In this document: in pieces, positions 32,723 to 60,754 of the stretch | How the letters are laid out: each line of letters starts with the position of its first letter | Position numbering within the stretch: position 1 is the first letter of the stretch | Assembly: GCF_026723765.1 (NCBI RefSeq) | Contig: NZ_CP113524.1 | Location: forward strand, 2,403,001 to 2,467,000 | Reading direction: 5' to 3' | Source of the DNA: Lacrimispora xylanolytica | GTDB taxonomy: Bacteria > Bacillota > Clostridia > Lachnospirales > Lachnospiraceae | Length of the DNA: 64,000 bases | The notes under the pieces: model-generated | The model's input: only the letters and a program-made list of their open reading frames with translations | Databases searched by the model: none | What the model was told of the DNA's origin: nothing | Position numbers and translations under genes: made by a program

Positions 32723-32832
32723 TCCGGTTTGAAACACGCAAAAAAGGGCAGGGACTTCCAAAGAAGCCTCCACCCTAAAAGCAACAATTCTTGAAAACAG
32801 ATACAAAATACAGAAATATCTGTCCAACCGGA
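32723..32832 (-). promoter_or_regulatory. Structured 5' leader of oadG-oadB with internal terminator
   Basis: The leader of about 150 nt between the promoter and oadG folds, by eye, into a 7-base long-range pairing (32826-32832 with 32723-32729), a 7-base hairpin (ACAGATA/TATCTGT, arms 32817-32823 and 32797-32803) and a strong GC-rich hairpin followed by six T in the direction of oadG. This layout resembles a transcription attenuator or riboswitch. I do not recognise a known class. Confidence 0.5.
32740..32776 (-). terminator. Intrinsic terminator in the oadG leader
   Basis: On the minus strand AGGGTGGAGGCTTC (32776-32763) pairs with GAAGTCCCTGCCC (32758-32746), helped by G-U pairs, and is followed by TTTTTT. 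It could end read-through from the sugar ABC operon or act as an attenuator for oadG. Confidence 0.75.
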
Positions 32833-53142: not shown

Positions 53143-54387
53143 TTACTCTTCTTCCTCTTCCTGCTCTAACAGAGCATTGAGCCATAATCCTGCCAAATGA
53201 ATGGCTCCATGAAATCCAACGAAAGGAGGATCATAAGGACTTAGTCTCCATCTGACATCCGGATTGCTGATTTGAAGTTCCAATCCTTTTCCTGCCCATT
53301 TTAAAGCTTCTCCACTTCCCATGAAGATTCCTTTCTTTCGATTTTTCACTGCTTTGGACCATTCCTCCTCTAAGAAGTATGGTATATCCTCATCTCCCAT
53401 GTCCGGACTATCACACCAGCAGTCTCCCCGGTACAAAGACAGCTCCTTATGACCATATTCCAGAATTCCTTTTACTATATCCGCGTGACCTCCCAGAGAA
53501 ATCGTAGCTTCAGCCGGGTGGGAACGAATCATATGGTTTAAAACAGGCATTGCAGGTCTTAAATGATTCCTGGCTCTATTGGCTTCCTGGTTCACAAAGT
53601 CATGGTCTGCCTCCACCCCCAGGATATTTGATATGTTTGCAATCCACGAAAGAGTTCCTTCTATTCCATAAGGCCTGCCGATCACATAGGGTGTGCCAAA
53701 TCGCTTTTCTAAATATTTTGCCGCCTTTTCTCCTTCTCTTCTGACCACTATATTGATATGAGCTCCTCCCATATCCATTACCTGGCTTGCCGAGGTATGA
53801 GATGTCATCACGCAAACCGGGTCTATTCCAAAGGCTCCTTTAAGAATTCTCACCATTTCTTCTGCATCTGACTGAAAGCGAAACATATCTGCGCAGGACC
53901 CAATGATATTAAAGCTGGGCCGGGTCGTTTTTTCCCTTTCTTTTGGAAGCTCCTTCGCCAGTAAAAGAAGGGCTTCTTCCACCCCTTCGTATCCATGGAC
54001 ATGAAAGCCTCCTGCCCCAAATGGGAGTAAAGGAATATCCGGATATTCTGGCTGCAGTTCCTTGCAGATTGCATTTAAATCTGTTCCAATGACGGTTGGA
54101 ACGGAAGAAGGAAGGAAAAAGATGATTTCCGGCTTATCTTTTTCTACGATTTCAGCAATTGTGCGGTTAAGCCGCTTGGTATCGCCCATGGAAATATCTG
54201 TTTCGTCAATGTGCGTCGAGTACAGCCTGCACCCATCTGCCACTCCAGCCTGATTTAAAAACACCCGGCTATACAGCATATGTCCCATACAGCCATATTC
54301 AATCAGAGCTGCACCCCGAATGGATCCAAGGGTGCGCAAAGTACCCATTCTTCCGGAAAGAGGCGGCCTGAATCTATGTAATCCCAT
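53143..54387 (-). CDS. Nitrogenase-like oxidoreductase, second subunit (NifK/BchZ-like)
   Basis: This 414-residue member of the nitrogenase component 1 family is the last gene of the operon. The N-terminal region LIEYGCMGHMLYSR holds the only cysteine at a P-cluster-like position (Cys33). The third ligand site is LPSSVPTVIG, with Ser95 where the partner has Cys, and the first ligand Cys is absent. Later parts show FNIIGSCADMF and RFGTPYVIGRPYGIEG typical of the family's Rossmann-like domains. Paired with the upstream subunit, which has three Cys, it would complete a single [4Fe-4S] site. There is no sign of FeMo-cofactor ligands. The ATG at 54387 has AAGGAG nine bases upstream; an in-frame ATG at 54396 is too close to it. 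The tail is a run of Glu. Confidence 0.85.
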   Translation of the reverse strand: MGLHRFRPPLSGRMGTLRTLGSIRGAALIEYGCMGHMLYSRVFLNQAGVADGCRLYSTHIDETDISMGDTKRLNRTIAEIVEKDKPEIIFFLPSSVPTVIGTDLNAICKELQPEYPDIPLLPFGAGGFHVHGYEGVEEALLLLAKELPKEREKTTRPSFNIIGSCADMFRFQSDAEEMVRILKGAFGIDPVCVMTSHTSASQVMDMGGAHINIVVRREGEKAAKYLEKRFGTPYVIGRPYGIEGTLSWIANISNILGVEADHDFVNQEANRARNHLRPAMPVLNHMIRSHPAEATISLGGHADIVKGILEYGHKELSLYRGDCWCDSPDMGDEDIPYFLEEEWSKAVKNRKKGIFMGSGEALKWAGKGLELQISNPDVRWRLSPYDPPFVGFHGAIHLAGLWLNALLEQEEEEE

Positions 54388-54412
54388 TTCAATCATCTCC
54401 TTACCTGTTGGT

Positions 54413-55663
54413 TTATTTGAAAGCGTTTATCAGTCTTTTTAATAATAATTCTGTCCGTTCATAACCTGCCTGCCCGTATAGTTCATCTAAGTGGGGGACA
54501 CAAGGAATCATCCCATTTCCGCCAGGTATCTCTCCAAAAGAAACATCTGGGCTTATCACCTCCAGTATTCTTGCATCGGAGGGTTCATTTACCATATGGC
54601 AGAGATAGGGATTCTGTCCTTGTTCCAGAAGAAGATTAGACCATTTTTTATCATCCGGATAATATTCTTCCATGTGAAGCAGCAATGGCTCCATCCCCAG
54701 CCTTAACAGATAATGAGCCAGTGGCAGTGTCATTAAGGTGTTACGATGGGTCGAGACAAAGCGGAGCCCTTTTACCATTTCTTTTGCTTCTGCCTCCAAA
54801 TGGGCAGCTGCCTTTCTTGATTTTAGAAAACCGTCTCCCCACTGAATGCCTAACTTTGAAGCAATGTCATGATATAGATAGTCAATACCATCTACGTCAT
54901 AGACTTCATGAACGCTGACAAAGGGGACTCCAAAACGATTTTCCATCCGTTTGGCAAGAGGATTCATATAAGGGGAAAGCACGAGATTCAGCGCTCCGTC
55001 TGGTGCGGAGACAAAATCTGTGATATCAGATTTAGGTGCCAGATAACGAAGGGTCATTTCTCTGGTTTCCAGTGCCTGTAAAAGCTCTGGCATTGGAATA
55101 TGGTCCTCTTCTTTGCTTCTGCCCAGAATGTTTACCACATCCGGGCGTTTTTTAATAGGCTTCATCATCTCTCCAAAGGACTCCAGCGTTTTATAGAAAC
55201 CGGAAGGATAGCTGTTGCATTTAAAATGAGGCATTTGCACATAGTTAAGTCTGGCTTTTGTTTGGGGCTGCAGCTCCCGAATGATTCCTTCCATATCCTC
55301 TCCTATGACTTCGGGAACACAGGTGGAAATCAGCATAATCGCCCTTGCTCCAGCTTCATCCATTTCCTTAACAGCCTGCATGACTCCCTTTCTGCATCCA
55401 AAGACCACCTCATTGGAATCCAGCACATACATCCAGTGGAAGGTATGATCCTCCGGCTTATTTTTCTCAATAATGCTGCGGCTGTAATTGCCGCATTCTG
55501 CCGTTCCGATTAATAGGGTTGACATTCCTTTAATATTGGAACTCAGCGCCAATGCAGTGTGCATGGGGCAATGATTGCCGGGAAAGGCAGCTGGAGTTAG
55601 AAATTTAATTCCAGCATTGGATTTAACGGCAGACAACCTCTTTAGATGCTTTAGCTCATTCAT
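54413..55663 (-). CDS. Nitrogenase-like oxidoreductase, first subunit (NifD/BchY-like)
   Basis: This 416-residue catalytic-component protein of the nitrogenase superfamily has three cysteines at the P-cluster ligand positions: [10 protein letters not shown] (Cys32), [10 protein letters not shown] (Cys57) and [12 protein letters not shown] (Cys115). The order and spacing match NifD Cys62/88/154 and the three-Cys subunits of dark-operative chlorophyllide-type reductases. It starts at the ATG at 55663 behind GGAGGG, overlapping the NifH-like stop by 8 bases, and is followed after 25 bases by the second subunit. No nifB, nifE, nifN or nifV-like gene is present, so a nitrogen-fixing role is unlikely. 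The substrate is unknown; the upstream transporter genes suggest an imported metal chelate or macrocycle. Confidence 0.87.
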
Positions 55664-56414
55664 CCTCAAGCCCTCCTTCCAGCAACAGCCTTGCTAAAGA
55701 ACGGTAATGCTCTGCCATATCAGAATCCGGCAAGGCCTCAATCACAGTCTTTCCTTCTGCCTCCGCCTGTTGCACGGCGCCATCTCTTGGCAGACGGTAA
55801 AGGATTGGGGCATCGATTTCAGAGGCTGCTTTTTTAACCAGCTCCTCTTCCAGCTCAATATTCTTGGAATTTAATATAAGCCCCCGAAGACTTGCGTAGC
55901 CCCGGCTTCCAAAGCTTTTCACCGCATGAGCAATATTCGAAGCCGCATAAAGGGACATCATTTCCCCAGAGGTTACAATACACACCTCATCCGCATAGCC
56001 GCCGCGAATGGGCATGGCAAATCCTCCGCAGACCACATCTCCAAGCACGTCATAAAGCACTACATCCGGCCGGTATGTATCATAGGCCTCTAACTCTTCC
56101 AATTTTTCAAACGCAGTTATGATTCCTCTGCCAGCACAGCCGATTCCTGGCACGGGACCACCCGCTTCCACGCAAAGCACTCCAGTACTGCTTTTGACCA
56201 CAAAATCCTCAAGCTCCGCATCTCCCTGGTCTCTTAAAATATCCAGTACGGTGGGAATATTTTTTCCGCCAGTTAAGTTCCTTGTAGAATCCGCCTTTGG
56301 GTCACAGCCTATTTGCAGCACGGTTTTCCCCATTTCAGCCATTGCAGCCGATATATTTGAAACTGTGGTGGATTTTCCAATTCCGCCTTTTCCGTAAATT
56401 GCGATCTTTTTCAT
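55656..56414 (-). CDS. NifH-like iron protein (ATP-dependent electron donor)
   Basis: The 252-residue ATPase of the NifH/BchL/BchX family forms a dimer bridged by one [4Fe-4S] cluster and passes low-potential electrons to its partner while hydrolysing ATP. The P-loop is [11 protein letters not shown] (about 7-17), switch [10 protein letters not shown] (about 36-44), the first cluster Cys is in [10 protein letters not shown] (Cys93) and the second in [17 protein letters not shown] (Cys129), which is also switch II. All signature residues are intact. It is slightly shorter than NifH at the C-terminus. It lies 109 bases after the second permease gene and overlaps the NifD-like gene. Confidence 0.93.
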
Positions 56415-56523
56415 CTTCTTCCTGCCTTTCTTTGCTTCTGCCTTGTTTCAATTCTGTTTTCATCTCAGAAGATATCTTGTCGATTGTAGACTCTATGTCC
56501 ATATTTCTTATTTCATATTTCAC

Positions 56524-57564
56524 TCAGTTTCTGCGCTTCCTTAACAGATATAAAAAGTAAGGTGCTCCAATAACGGCTGTTACCAGACCGGCCGGCAGCT
56601 CAGAGGGCTGAACAATGGTTCTTCCTACGGTATCCGCTGCCAGGACCAGTACTGACCCTGTCAGGGCACATACGGGCAAAAGGATCTGGTGACGCGATCC
56701 TACCAGTTTCGCTGCCAGGTGGGGTGCAATTAGTCCCACAAAGCCAATGCCACCGCCAACAGCCACGCAAGAACCAGCCAGCGCTACTGCTGACGAAAGA
56801 AGAAAGATTCTCTGACGCGAAACTGAAATCCCCAGTCCGCCAGCCACTTCTTCTCCCAGACTTAACACATCAAGAACAAGTGCCTTTGACCAAACATAGA
56901 ATCCAAGTATAAAAATCCATGGCAGCAAAGCCATGACGTAGTTCCAATTTGCCCCCCATATGGTCCCTGCCTGCCAGGCGGCCACAAAATTGTATTGGGT
57001 TTCGTCAAGCCTGACCACAGTTACCGTCGTCAGGGCAGTTAAGCCTGCCTGTAAAGCCACCCCCACTAAAATCAGACGAACCGGGGAGGCTTCCCTTCGT
57101 CTGGCATACGCCAGAATATATATGAAAAAGGACGTTACTCCTCCCCCAGCCATGGCAATAAAGGGCATGGTAAAGACCGCCAAAAAGGACTGTGTCCCAA
57201 GAAACAGCACATACATAGTAACTGCAAAGCCAGCCCCCGCATGAATACCCAGAAGCCCCGGATCTGCCAGGGAATTTCCCAGTACCGCCTGTATAATGCG
57301 GCCTGAAATAGAAAGACCTGCCCCCACCAATATGGAAATCACGATGCGAGGAAGACGAAACTGAAATAAAACCAGATTTTCTTTCCCGCTGCCGCCTCCA
57401 AAAAGAGTGCGGAGCGTATCAAATGGAGATAGCCTTATTTGACCTGTATTCATACTGACCAGCAGAGTAAAGAGAAGTATTCCACATAAAATCACCACCA
57501 CTCCATGGTTTCGAGAAAGACGCCTACCCCTGTCAGTCCTAACTAACTCTCTCACGGGATTCAT
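56524..57564 (-). CDS. FecCD-family ABC transporter permease 2
   Basis: This membrane permease of the iron-chelate/cobalamin/heme importer family has 346 residues and about ten hydrophobic segments. It shows LSISGRIIQAVLGNSLADPGLLGIHAGAGFAV near residue 85 and the ATPase-docking region SVALAGSCVAVGGGIGFVGLIAPHLAAKLVG (about 255-285). It overlaps the first permease by 4 bases (ATGA), so the two are translationally coupled and form a heterodimer. No ATPase gene follows; the next gene is the NifH-like protein. Confidence 0.93.
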   Translation of the reverse strand: MNPVRELVRTDRGRRLSRNHGVVVILCGILLFTLLVSMNTGQIRLSPFDTLRTLFGGGSGKENLVLFQFRLPRIVISILVGAGLSISGRIIQAVLGNSLADPGLLGIHAGAGFAVTMYVLFLGTQSFLAVFTMPFIAMAGGGVTSFFIYILAYARRREASPVRLILVGVALQAGLTALTTVTVVRLDETQYNFVAAWQAGTIWGANWNYVMALLPWIFILGFYVWSKALVLDVLSLGEEVAGGLGISVSRQRIFLLSSAVALAGSCVAVGGGIGFVGLIAPHLAAKLVGSRHQILLPVCALTGSVLVLAADTVGRTIVQPSELPAGLVTAVIGAPYFLYLLRKRRN

Positions 57565-58601
57565 ACGTTACGCCTCCTTTGGCTACATGCCAGATACAGA
57601 AAAAACGGGCCTCCAAGCAAAGCAACCACAGCACCTAAGGGTGTTTCAAAGGGTGGATTGACCAGCCGGGCGCCTAAATCCGCTGCAACAACCAACGCTG
57701 CCCCAAAGATGGCGGAGACAGGAAGAATGCTTCGATAATCCATACCAACAAAATAACGGACGATATGAGGGACCATAAGCCCTACAAATCCAATTCCGCC
57801 AGCTATGGATACCGCTGCACCTGCAAGTATAAACACCAAACAGGAGCAGACTGCATTTACTGCCCCGGTATTCACACCAAGTCCTTTTGCGGTTTCCTGA
57901 CCAAGACTGAGCAGTGATATTGACCTAGCCAGAAGAAAAGCTCCAATAAGTCCTGCTGCAATCCAGGGAGATATCCCCTTAATCTGCTGCCAGTTTGCGC
58001 CTGCTGTCCCTCCTGTTGTCCAGAACATCACCTTCTGAGAAACATTATAATGCAAGGCAATTCCCTGGCTGAATGCAGTAAGTAGCGCACTGACCGCAGC
58101 TCCTGCCAGTACAATTCTCCCAGACTCATTTGTTCCTCCTCTCATGCCAGAGGCCCCGATAACTAAGCCTGCTCCCAGGGCTGCTCCAGCAAATGCCGCC
58201 CACATCATCTCCTGATAACGCAGACCGGGAAAGAAGGCAAAGCAGACCGAAAGAGAGAAGACTGCCCCGGCATTAAGGCCCATAAGCCCGGAATCTGCCA
58301 AAGGATTCTTCGTCATTGCCTGCATCATTGCCCCGGCTACAGCAAGGGAAGCTCCAACCATTGCCCCAGTGACCACCCTGGGGAGCCGCAGATCCATAAT
58401 AATTAAATGCTGGGACTGTCCGGCATCATACTGTGTCACTGCCTCCCACAAGGTTTTAACAGGTATATCTGACGCCCCGCCCATCACGGAAACTGTCATG
58501 GCGTAAAGAAGTAATAAGAGACCTCCTAAAAGAGCCAGACACGTCCTCCTCAGAAGATTTTTTTGGTAACCGGTTTGTTCTGTAAAAATGCTCGGTTTCA
58601 T
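57561..58601 (-). CDS. FecCD-family ABC transporter permease 1
   Basis: This 346-residue partner permease shows the same landmarks: ASLAVAGAMMQAMTKNPLADSGLMGLNAGA (about 80-110) and GGIGFVGLMVPHIVRYFVGMDYR (about 267-290). TTAGGAGGGTTC precedes its ATG. It is separated from the binding-protein gene by a strong terminator, so less permease than binding protein should be made. Confidence 0.93.
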   Translation of the reverse strand: MKPSIFTEQTGYQKNLLRRTCLALLGGLLLLLYAMTVSVMGGASDIPVKTLWEAVTQYDAGQSQHLIIMDLRLPRVVTGAMVGASLAVAGAMMQAMTKNPLADSGLMGLNAGAVFSLSVCFAFFPGLRYQEMMWAAFAGAALGAGLVIGASGMRGGTNESGRIVLAGAAVSALLTAFSQGIALHYNVSQKVMFWTTGGTAGANWQQIKGISPWIAAGLIGAFLLARSISLLSLGQETAKGLGVNTGAVNAVCSCLVFILAGAAVSIAGGIGFVGLMVPHIVRYFVGMDYRSILPVSAIFGAALVVAADLGARLVNPPFETPLGAVVALLGGPFFLYLACSQRRRNV

Positions 58602-58625
58602 TGAACCCTCCTAAATTAAGTATAC

Positions 58626-58663
58626 AAAAAACCGGGCAACTCACTGTCTTAATGTCGCCCGGC
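58626..58663 (-). terminator. Intrinsic terminator/attenuator between binding-protein and permease genes
   Basis: On the minus strand CCGGGCGAC (58662-58654) pairs with GTTGCCCGG (58640-58632), followed by TTTTTT. It lies between two genes of one apparent operon and probably allows partial read-through. Confidence 0.85.
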
Positions 58664-58682
58664 AAATCCTATGATAAATCCG

Positions 58683-59639
58683 TTACCTTACCAATGCTTC
58701 CGTCAGTCCCTTTGCTGCTGCCTGTATGGCAAGAGGACTAGTGGTATTCAAAGAGCCATCCAGATAAACGACTTGCTGGTTCCTGACCGCCGTTAAATTA
58801 TTCCATACAGCAGACGCTTCCAGGGACGTTACAAGGCCTTTGGCATCGGAGATAAAGTCCTGAAAAATAATATAATCCGGATCCAGCTCAGACAGAGTCT
58901 CTAAAGAAATTACGCCCCATTCCTCAGGATATCCATCTGGTATGGAGAGTCCAAAGCCGGAGGTTTTATCATAATAGTAAGGATATCGGGAGGTTCCAAG
59001 GGCAAATACTCCACCCTTTCCATCGGAACGAACAAAAACCGCCGTTTTATCGCCTATGCCTGCAAGCTTTTCTCCTGCTTCCGACATGATTTTTTCTGTT
59101 TCCCTGATTCGCTGCTCTGCTAAGTTTTCCTTACCTGCAATCTTGGCACAATCACGTATGGAATCCTGCCAGCTTGCTGTATAATCCAGCATAACTACCG
59201 GAGCTATTCGTGTCAGCTGGTCATATATTTCATTTACTCCCCCATGTCCGTTAAAGGTAACGATGACATCTGGCTCTGCTGCAAGAATTGCTTCCAAGTT
59301 AAGCTGACGTGCACTTCCTAAGTCAATAATATCCGCGGTTCCCTTAAAGGGGCGAAGCGTTTCAAATTCTTCCAGCGCTTTCATGGCTGTTCCTGTATTA
59401 GCACCAGCGGAAGCAATTGGGGGCGTATCCAGTGCAAAGAAATACTCCAGATACATGGAATGCAGGATTGCGATTCTCTCCGGCTGCTTCTCTAAAACCA
59501 CCTCATGCCCTGCCGCGTCTTTAAAACTTCTTGGCCACTGGGAACCAGTGACTGCCGTCTCTTTGGGCGCTTTGGTACAACCACTGATCAGGCAGGAGAA
59601 AACTGCAATGGAAAGAAGTATTCTCATCATTTTTTTCAT
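58683..59639 (-). CDS. Iron-chelate-type substrate-binding lipoprotein
   Basis: This is the extracellular receptor of the FecCD transporter. The 318-residue precursor has a lipoprotein signal (ILLSIAVFSCLISGC, Cys near residue 21), then two lobes joined by a long helix as in FepB/FhuD/BtuF-type proteins: DAAGHEVVLEKQPERIAILH at the start and DPDYIIFQDFISDAKGL later. The ligand class (siderophore, heme, cobalamin or another chelate) cannot be decided by eye. GGAGGATATGAC precedes its ATG. It heads the transporter/nitrogenase-like set, behind an AraC regulator gene on the same strand. Confidence 0.92.
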   Translation of the reverse strand: MKKMMRILLSIAVFSCLISGCTKAPKETAVTGSQWPRSFKDAAGHEVVLEKQPERIAILHSMYLEYFFALDTPPIASAGANTGTAMKALEEFETLRPFKGTADIIDLGSARQLNLEAILAAEPDVIVTFNGHGGVNEIYDQLTRIAPVVMLDYTASWQDSIRDCAKIAGKENLAEQRIRETEKIMSEAGEKLAGIGDKTAVFVRSDGKGGVFALGTSRYPYYYDKTSGFGLSIPDGYPEEWGVISLETLSELDPDYIIFQDFISDAKGLVTSLEASAVWNNLTAVRNQQVVYLDGSLNTTSPLAIQAAAKGLTEALVR

Positions 59640-59726
59640 GTCATATCCTCCAGGTACTGAATGATGTGTTCCGTATTCAACTCATACAGTATAGCAATGG
59701 AAGAAATTGATTGGAATGGAATAATC

Positions 59727-60557
59727 CTAAGATGGACATGGATTATTCCTGAATTTCTCACGAAAGCCGCTGGGTGTTATTCCAAACTGCTTTTTAAATA
59801 ACCTGCTAAAATACAGTGGATCATCGTAACCAACTCCCCGGGCAACGTCACTGATTAAAGCATCACTTGTAATGAGAATTTCCTTTGCACGATTTAAGCG
59901 GTACCGGAGAAGATAATCTCCCGGCCCCATTCCGGCATAGCTTCGAAATACATAAAACAAACGGTTTGCAGTCACTCCATTTTGTTCCGCCAGTCCTCCT
60001 ACCGTCAGCCCCTCCATATAATAATCGTGAATATAGGAACGGACAGATTTAAAAAGCATATGGGAGCTGTCACTTGTCTGGCTCGCAGCACTGATAAACA
60101 TTTCCTCCAAAATGCAGCGAAACAACACTTCTGACTGAAAGGAAGAAAGGGCCCCGGGTTCTGAAAAAGCTCTGCGAAGACGCCATAAAAGACCGTTCAG
60201 CCTGGGGCTATGCCCAACCGTCAGTTCAAAATGGGTATCAGGAAGAAACTCTCCCTCCGGCTTCTTCCCTGTTATGTCATAAAAAACAGATATGTATTCC
60301 CACCTTCTATTTCCCAGAACAAGCTTGTCTAACATCATATCCGGCACACCATGAATGATTTTCCGGGAATCTGTGGTATAGAGAGTTCCATCAAAGGCAT
60401 ACTGCGCCCTTCCGCTGATGGGAAATATAAATCCACGAAATGGGGCCGTTTTCTGTCTGCCGGAAGATCCTGGCTCTATTGCATAGTGATAAACCCCTTG
60501 TACACATATAGAGGCATTGGAGTAGCTTTTTATAAACTGTTCTAATTCTGCATCCAT
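59727..60557 (-). CDS. AraC-family regulator of the transporter/nitrogenase-like operon
   Basis: The 276-residue regulator has an N-terminal sensor half (about 1-165, with FRGFIFPISGRAQYAFDG) and a C-terminal AraC domain (about 172-270, with LTVGGLAEQNGVTANRLFYVFRS and LISDVARGVGYDDPLYFSRLFKKQFGITP). Regulators of this kind next to siderophore transporters often bind the imported ferric chelate. It lies directly upstream of the binding-protein gene on the same strand; the 87-base gap contains AATAATCC...GGATTATT and a TATACT-type -10 with a poor -35, fitting activator-dependent expression. Confidence 0.88.
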   Translation of the reverse strand: MDAELEQFIKSYSNASICVQGVYHYAIEPGSSGRQKTAPFRGFIFPISGRAQYAFDGTLYTTDSRKIIHGVPDMMLDKLVLGNRRWEYISVFYDITGKKPEGEFLPDTHFELTVGHSPRLNGLLWRLRRAFSEPGALSSFQSEVLFRCILEEMFISAASQTSDSSHMLFKSVRSYIHDYYMEGLTVGGLAEQNGVTANRLFYVFRSYAGMGPGDYLLRYRLNRAKEILITSDALISDVARGVGYDDPLYFSRLFKKQFGITPSGFREKFRNNPCPS

Positions 60558-60754
60558 AGTTCTATCTCTTTTCTTATCTTTTTAAGTTAGTCGTGTCTAA
60601 CTATCAAATTATACTATTTCTCCTGGTTTCCCGCAAGCAAAGGTGGAAAAATGACGCAGAAATACAATCATTTCCACATTCTTTTCCCCATATTTTCATA
60701 CTTTATGATATACTGAATTTGAATGTGAACAAAAAGAAAGGTGGTAGTTCTAAT

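Follow-up and report, generated by a model that had tools for sequence, protein, structure and literature searches.

A nitrogenase-like reductase and a siderophore-type importer in one operon of Lacrimispora xylanolytica: a candidate system for reductive iron release

The window analysed here, a stretch of 64,000 nucleotides from Lacrimispora xylanolytica (assembly GCF_026723765.1, contig NZ_CP113524.1, positions 2,403,001 to 2,467,000 of the forward strand), holds an operon of seven genes, all on the minus strand and together spanning 53143-60557, in which an AraC-family regulator, a substrate-binding lipoprotein and two FecCD permeases are followed by NifH-, NifD- and NifK-like genes. We propose, with somewhat better than even confidence, that this is an iron-acquisition operon, whose ATP-driven reductase, akin to dark-operative protochlorophyllide reductase (DPOR), would free iron from an imported ferric siderophore. 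The proposal draws on sequence and on a structural model: the operon itself, its conservation, a palindrome at its promoter together with the iron-related neighbours of other copies of that palindrome, a split of the related loci into a siderophore-linked and a heme-linked clade, the residues of the predicted cluster, and a DPOR-like fold. The operon is laid out as follows:

60586-60601, no strand: palindrome GTTAGTCGTGTCTAAC (GTTAG-N6-CTAAC), 28 nt upstream of the AraC start codon
59727-60557, minus strand: AraC-family regulator of 276 aa, first gene of the operon (HTH_18/HTH_AraC; Pfam HTH_18, 72.9 bits)
58683-59639, minus strand: substrate-binding lipoprotein of 318 aa, siderophore type (Peripla_BP_2, 108.1 bits)
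57561-58601, minus strand: FecCD permease 1, 346 aa (PF01032, 304.5 bits)
56524-57564, minus strand: FecCD permease 2, 346 aa (PF01032, 308 bits)
56415-56523, minus strand: gap of 109 nt between FecCD2 and nifH, the position of the ATPase gene in many relatives
55656-56414, minus strand: NifH-like ATP-dependent [4Fe-4S] reductase, 252 aa (Fer4_NifH, 320.9 bits)
54413-55669, minus strand: NifD/BchN-like subunit, 418 aa, with cluster residues Cys34, Cys59 and Cys117 (Oxidored_nitro, 230.2 bits)
53143-54396, minus strand: NifK/BchB-like subunit, 417 aa, with His39 at the ligand position of BchB Asp36 (Oxidored_nitro, 179.9 bits)

Coordinates and Pfam matches confirm each gene, and with them the order, common strand and close spacing given in the original prediction, which had been made from the letters of the stretch: the two FecCD genes overlap by 4 nt and NifH and NifD by 14 nt, and 16 nt separate NifD from NifK. 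That prediction had also seen no nifB, nifE, nifN or nifV, which is true of the window but not of the host genome (one 4.5-Mb contig), where a nif cluster at 3.55 Mb (3549000-3568000; four further PF00148 matches) comprises H, D, K, E, an N-B fusion, NifV-like and modABC-type genes, the gene names being assigned by eye. The NifHDK-like genes of the window are thus an additional set in a host that may be a diazotroph. Paenibacillus sabinae has other nifHDK-like genes, which, according to the part of that study used here, did not serve nitrogen fixation (PMC4246453).

Two clades of related operons and their linked genes

A pattern search gave 148 loci among 84,980 species genomes, and 80 of them were kept: 56 of type I, the clade of the window, and 24 of type II, contig-edge loci included (L137 and L145 were assigned to type II from gene content, not from the tree). 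Loci with 7 kb of sequence upstream of K and 1.5 kb downstream are taken as complete (46 of type I, 16 of type II). FecCD genes stand beside HDK in 41 of the 46 complete type I loci, as does a binding protein (41) and an AraC gene (42); in type II, FecCD, binding protein and ATPase are each present in 16 of 16. The gene set thus recurs in most of the 80 loci, and the arrangement is not one of chance; the co-occurrence of the homologues with FecCD genes, which the original prediction had singled out as its own check, is borne out in both clades. The usual order in type I is AraC, binding protein, FecCD, FecCD, ATPase, H, D, K, and 11 of the 56 loci also have a fused ABC membrane-ATPase protein. 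In type II it is H, binding protein, FecCD, ATPase, D, K, and a flavodoxin often comes next; the importer genes usually sit between nifH and nifDK, inside the nitrogenase-like operon.

The tree, which has 88 K/D rows, groups type I (54 rows; support 100/98) with its sister clade, type II (24 rows; 97/90; Alkaliphilus transvaalensis among them), at a support of 96/93, and puts the clade of the window outside both NifDKEN and BchNB. This tree lacks MarDK, IsrDK, BchYZ and CfbD, and its NifN row consists of the first 440 residues of an N-B fusion; because BchN, BchB and NifK have long branches and some joins are doubtful, we limit the claim to the split between the two types. Placement in a clade of known substrate, the other check named in the original prediction, is covered in part: the window proteins lie outside NifDKEN and BchNB in the tree and below every NCBIfam cut-off.

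The closest named match to the window is Clostridium sp. 12(A), whose K is 100% identical by rounding, with two residues different. Of 24 genomes of the genus, 15 have a K-like match at E<=1e-40, as against none of the 17 other genomes in the same search; among 295 genomes taken from the order, 15 match K at E<=1e-60. Some type I records carry the labels Deferribacterota, Chloroflexota, Actinomycetota and Thermoplasmatota, several of them being metagenome bins in which binning errors are possible, and one type I operon lies on a plasmid of Sporomusa termitida.

A few loci depart from these layouts. In the type I loci L060 and L066 the importer genes are gone, leaving either a remnant of the binding protein or just AraC and HDK; each of the two genomes has another, fuller locus of type I (L059, L069). 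A third nitrogenase-like group outside both types (L046 8165-15529, L156 6835-13131) has H, D, K, a binding protein, FecCD and an ATPase, and in L046 adjoins FeoB-, Fur- and DtxR-like genes, judged by eye; its D has two cluster-type cysteines and its K one, like the Methanocorpusculum/Desulfitobacterium clade in the part of Dos Santos et al. (2012) used here. In Mobilisporobacter (L109 11371-13209) an HMA-DsbD-cupredoxin protein directly follows K and a P-type-ATPase-like piece lies upstream, which are possible copper neighbours.

The genes linked to the two types point to siderophores for type I and to heme for type II. For the window lipoprotein, the nearest named relatives in the PDB are binding proteins of ferri-enterobactin, ferric citrate (YfmC) and ferric vibriobactin, together with HtsA and FhuD; it scores 85.1 bits on the FepB-type model as against 25.6 on IsdE. 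A scan of 38 type I binding proteins (that of the window and 37 of the 47 found) gave FepB-type matches in all 38, the best at E 4.1e-24, and BtuF matches in 4. TonB receptors lie near 5 of the 56 type I loci, all in diderm hosts; those tested from Pelosinus and Anaerospora exceed the cut-off of the TonB-siderophor model (357.9 and 346.9 vs 223.5 bits), and the plasmid operon of Sporomusa termitida is flanked by a protein annotated as a siderophore receptor and, at its opposite end, by a PF00756 esterase. The type II binding proteins match IsdE in 16 of 16 cases, with a best E of 4.3e-107 (82 to 285 bits in the four scored singly, cut-off 298.65), and BtuF in 15 of 16. Among the neighbours of the 24 type II loci are NEAT proteins in 4, sortase B in 2, HugZ/HutZ-like proteins in 4 (below cut-off) and BilS-like flavodoxins in 10. 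Short HugZ/HutZ-like proteins directly follow K in L141 (11223-11684), L132 (8114-8578) and L138 (4952-5431), at 134-137 bits where the cut-off is 240; in strict anaerobes they are perhaps heme binders rather than oxygenases.

The original prediction had listed siderophores, heme-like macrocycles and corrinoids as candidates. The siderophore is now favoured for type I, and heme for its sister clade; the corrinoid was dropped since no cobalamin riboswitch was found in the window or in 7 related loci, and BtuF is matched by only 4 of the 38 type I binding proteins scanned, although most of those of type II match it.

Cluster residues and kinship of the reductase

The NifH-like protein has the P-loop, Cys93 and Cys129, invariant in all 21 aligned rows including its own, so that the motifs and cysteines predicted to be intact are indeed so; on NCBIfam it stays under the cut-offs of both NifH (334.5 of 394.35 bits) and CfbC (337.4 of 402). 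In D, Cys34, Cys59 and Cys117 are kept in every spanning row of 77 related proteins (the positions are missing in the cut rows L086, L088 and L105 and in one type II row). In K, the position of BchB Asp36 is His in 54 of 55 type I rows (the exception, a row at a contig edge, has Arg) and Thr in all 24 type II rows. The alignments used for modelling, cleared of near-duplicates and of rows of odd length, contain 52 K and 51 D rows, and the residue counts were repeated on all 79 K and 77 D rows. The closest fold to the K model is that of BchB of DPOR.

The ligand set differs from those of the characterised members of the superfamily. Nitrogenases (NifHDK, VnfDK, AnfDK) are set apart by the FeMo-co ligands Cys275 and His442, absent from D at the aligned positions, and by the six P-cluster cysteines, of which D keeps its three and K none of its three. 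The FeMo-co check and the first P-cluster check were run on the near-identical proteins of L074, from which the proteins of the window differ at two residues in K and, besides the start codon, at two in D, none at the positions used; the cluster positions were rechecked with the D and K proteins of the window itself. DPOR (BchLNB) has the same three cysteines in BchN, but K offers no equivalent of Asp36, and the NCBIfam scores are low (BchB 100.7 of 490.35, BchN 44.2 of 419.95, BchL 210.3 of 345.15 bits); the scores are low too for BchXYZ, chlorophyllide oxidoreductase or COR (BchX 196.4 of 331.2, BchY 26.4 of 425.15 with D, BchZ 46.8 of 529 with K). CfbCD, of F430 synthesis, can be set aside by the CfbC score given above and by the CfbD model, which reaches 24.8 bits with K and 21.4 with D of 268.4, and the window has two subunits where CfbCD has one of D type. 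The methylthio-alkane reductase MarHDK, as described in the part of the source cited, has a P-cluster of six cysteines and an [Fe8S9C] cluster anchored by MarD Cys270 and His429 (PMC12552129); K lacks the three P-cluster cysteines and D the cofactor cysteine. In the isethionate reductase Isr (IsrBHDK), according to the passages used here, D has one conserved cluster cysteine and K three, and IsrB is a radical-SAM partner (PMC11423573); the pattern in the window is the opposite, with three in D and none in K. A search of the neighbours for radical-SAM partners, by the CX3CX2C pattern only, gave two stray cases in the 80 loci, one of them of type I.

The palindrome and the genes around its other copies

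The pattern GTTAG-N6-CTAAC has 23 sites in the host genome, as against 3 for a reversed control pattern, and in each of 25 genomes of the genus it is commoner than its control. Of the 22 sites other than that at the operon, 12 adjoin genes of iron biology:

L174 (two sites), L175, L176 and L179: five sites at FecCD genes or genes of FecCD-type binding proteins
L177: between a DtxR-type gene and feoB, 575 nt from feoB
L180: 299 nt before another DtxR-type gene
L182: at sufC (sufC above cut-off)
L173 and L186: at AraC-binding-protein fusion regulators, at 35 and 87 nt
L178: at a DUF3793-flavodoxin pair
L187: at an Fe/Mn superoxide dismutase

The palindrome at the window promoter, taken with these neighbours, suggests an iron regulon. 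With at most one mismatch it is found upstream of 27 of 51 type I loci (shuffle mean 0.88, largest 3) and of 3 of 18 type II loci (shuffle mean 0.26), the shuffles preserving base counts and not dinucleotides, and loci of the same genus not being independent; control palindromes stand upstream of 0 and 2 of the 51. The site of L074 itself is outside the 27, probably because an overlapping spurious reading frame failed the 60-nt gap filter. Fur-like sites lend weak support: they precede 25 of 51 type I loci, where the shuffles average 6.82 and reach 13 at most, and 9 of 18 type II loci, where they average 2.94 and reach 5.

A DUF3793 gene and a short-chain flavodoxin (145.6 bits, cut-off 123) stand behind a palindrome in L196 (3818-4902); this flavodoxin is a candidate electron donor for the NifH-like protein. 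Away from the operon, at 32765-32829 on the minus strand, the window carries a Na+ riboswitch aptamer (RF03071, 42.4 bits).

Proposed mechanism, alternatives and known systems

We propose that at low iron a repressor leaves the palindrome at 60586-60601, and that AraC probably switches the operon on in the presence of the ferric siderophore. DtxR-type proteins, whose genes adjoin two of the other sites, would be the leading candidates for the repressor. The lipoprotein and the two permeases would take up this siderophore, with an ATPase acting in trans; in the cytoplasm the NifH-like dimer, with a flavodoxin or ferredoxin as its electron donor, would use ATP to pass low-potential electrons to the D-K tetramer, whose [4Fe-4S] cluster, held by the three cysteines of D and most likely by His39 of K, would reduce the bound ferric siderophore and release Fe(II). 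The type II clade would carry out the equivalent reaction with heme. Ferric catecholates have very low potentials, below that of NAD(P)H, and electron transfer driven by ATP would thus be useful. Reductive release also fits a genus in which neither FhuF nor an FAD-type siderophore reductase was found in any of 25 genomes, yet 9 of 24 genomes are also without the K-like gene at the threshold given above.

The import-and-reduce system of the original prediction is supported as a hypothesis by the FecCD genes of both types; that prediction overlooked the missing ATPase, the nif cluster and the operator. A FecBCDE-type importer is present, to judge from the Peripla_BP_2 lipoprotein and the FecCD permeases, without its cognate ATPase in the operon: no ABC ATPase gene was found there, the gap between FecCD2 and nifH having 109 nt only, nor in the operon of a 96% relative, [Clostridium] aerotolerans. 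An ATPase lies near HDK in 32 of the 46 complete type I loci, that is in 32 of the 41 with FecCD, and some loci scored as lacking it may have broken or miscalled frames (L081, L088, L125). The nearest ATPase of operon type in the host genome, 77% identical to that of the same-genus locus L059, belongs to a second importer with a palindrome of its own at 1326725. That importer (L196 10726-16420) has a binding protein, two FecCD permeases, the 77% ATPase and a fused ABC protein of 574 aa like that of some type I operons. On this analysis the simplest view would be an ATPase shared in trans. Sharing of this kind is known from FhuC in Staphylococcus and YusV in Bacillus.

Several observations weigh against iron release from a siderophore. 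Five of the 46 complete type I loci have HDK without adjoining FecCD, which, taken with the absence of an ATPase gene from the window, would make import and reduction separable or the window importer one in decay; it may be decaying, though its reading frames are intact both here and in the 96% relative. The gene is dispensable in the 9 genomes of the genus that have no K-like match at E<=1e-40. IsdE too is matched by 38 of 38 type I binding proteins, at best more weakly than the FepB-type model, and the family scores shown singly are all under curated cut-offs (for FepB, the window lipoprotein reaches its 85.1 bits of 205); two Seleniivibrio receptors score best on siderophore-receptor models but likewise under cut-offs, and no receptor was found near three other Pelosinus type I loci. 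On the side of regulation, no clear iron neighbour is seen at 10 of the other 22 palindromes, three of the 10 lying within long reading frames (L172, L184, L189), which is about the control number, and no Fur box was found at the window promoter, eight weak matches in the window standing against 6.7 expected. Cys36 of K lies three positions away from His39; among 55 type I proteins this residue is Cys in 36 and Ser in 19, so that in the window protein K may contribute a cysteine ligand. We know of no biochemistry for the clade of the window.

The main rival, which we consider unlikely, holds that the enzyme reduces the chelator and not the iron (for example by cleavage of a hydroxamate N-O bond or, in type II, reduction of the heme ring), the iron then falling off. 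DPOR, the nearest fold, does reduce its ligand, at a ring double bond, and the type II substrate would be a tetrapyrrole, as it is for DPOR, COR and CfbCD in the part of the literature cited (PMC11423573); against this, the type I binding proteins do not single out hydroxamates. That the type I substrate is a corrinoid, heme or another macrocycle would suit FecCD importers, which carry all of these, and the IsdE matches of the type I binding proteins; the siderophore receptors and esterase beside some type I operons, the preference of the window lipoprotein for the FepB-type model and the lack of a cobalamin riboswitch make it improbable.

Two further alternatives were weighed. The importer might supply iron or another metal for cofactor building, whether in HDK or elsewhere; in the sections used here, Dos Santos et al. 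(2012) suggested this for nitrogenase-like genes linked to transporters (PMC3464626). We rate this as quite improbable: the binding proteins are of chelate type, the FeMo-co ligands are absent, radical-SAM-like neighbours are limited to the two stray cases, and the operon bears the palindrome of a wider iron-related gene set. Least credible to us is a role of HDK in sulfur or nitrogen metabolism, like that of Mar, Isr or nitrogenase, with the operon shared only since the clusters need iron; iron-sulfur proteins can be iron-regulated and the genome has its nif cluster, but the ligand pattern is unlike those of Mar, Isr and nitrogenase, the type II operon has importer genes inside it, and an iron-rich enzyme would be odd within an iron-starvation gene set.

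Reductive release of siderophore iron thus remains the reading that we prefer. Its wider form, for which we would put the chances a little short of even, is a branch of the nitrogenase superfamily devoted to iron acquisition, made up of ATP-driven reductases with a Cys3-His [4Fe-4S] cluster, one clade acting on ferric siderophores and its sister on heme. If this is true, anaerobes could reduce ferric catecholates with ATP-coupled electrons, needing neither an esterase nor oxygen, and a genus without FhuF- or FAD-type reductases would free its siderophore iron by spending ATP on the strongest chelators. An ancient enzyme family would have a new use, and the superfamily a substrate that is neither a tetrapyrrole nor a gas; there would be a lead for the opening of heme without oxygen, and a new ligand set to compare with the aspartate of DPOR. 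The siderophore/heme split and the iron-related operator already make for a concrete, testable substrate class.

The co-location of these genes has a history in print. The sections of Dos Santos et al. (2012) used here describe nitrogenase-like genes beside ABC transporters in C. botulinum, Alkaliphilus oremlandii and C. cellulovorans, where in the first two the NifE-like subunit has three cysteines and the NifN-like one has none, and suggest that metal transport is coupled to cofactor assembly (PMC3464626). NifH, ABC transporter and NifE/N-like genes stand together there, with three-cysteine and no-cysteine subunits, as they do here; those sections give no siderophore/heme split, iron regulon or substrate. 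The original prediction knew of no assigned function; searches of open-licence papers gave none either, and in particular no siderophore or heme role for these genes, their co-location with transporters being already published.

With DPOR the window shares its nearest fold, but its K has His39 for the Asp36 of BchB and a shorter C terminus, and where DPOR has pigment genes the window has a siderophore-type importer and an iron-related operator. With the siderophore importers FepBDGC, FhuBCD and FeuABC-YusV it shares the lipoprotein and the two FecCD permeases, differing in the lack of an ATPase in cis and in the presence of a nitrogenase-like reductase. With FhuF and the FAD-type siderophore-interacting proteins it would share the role, reductive release of iron after uptake, carried out by a different protein family.

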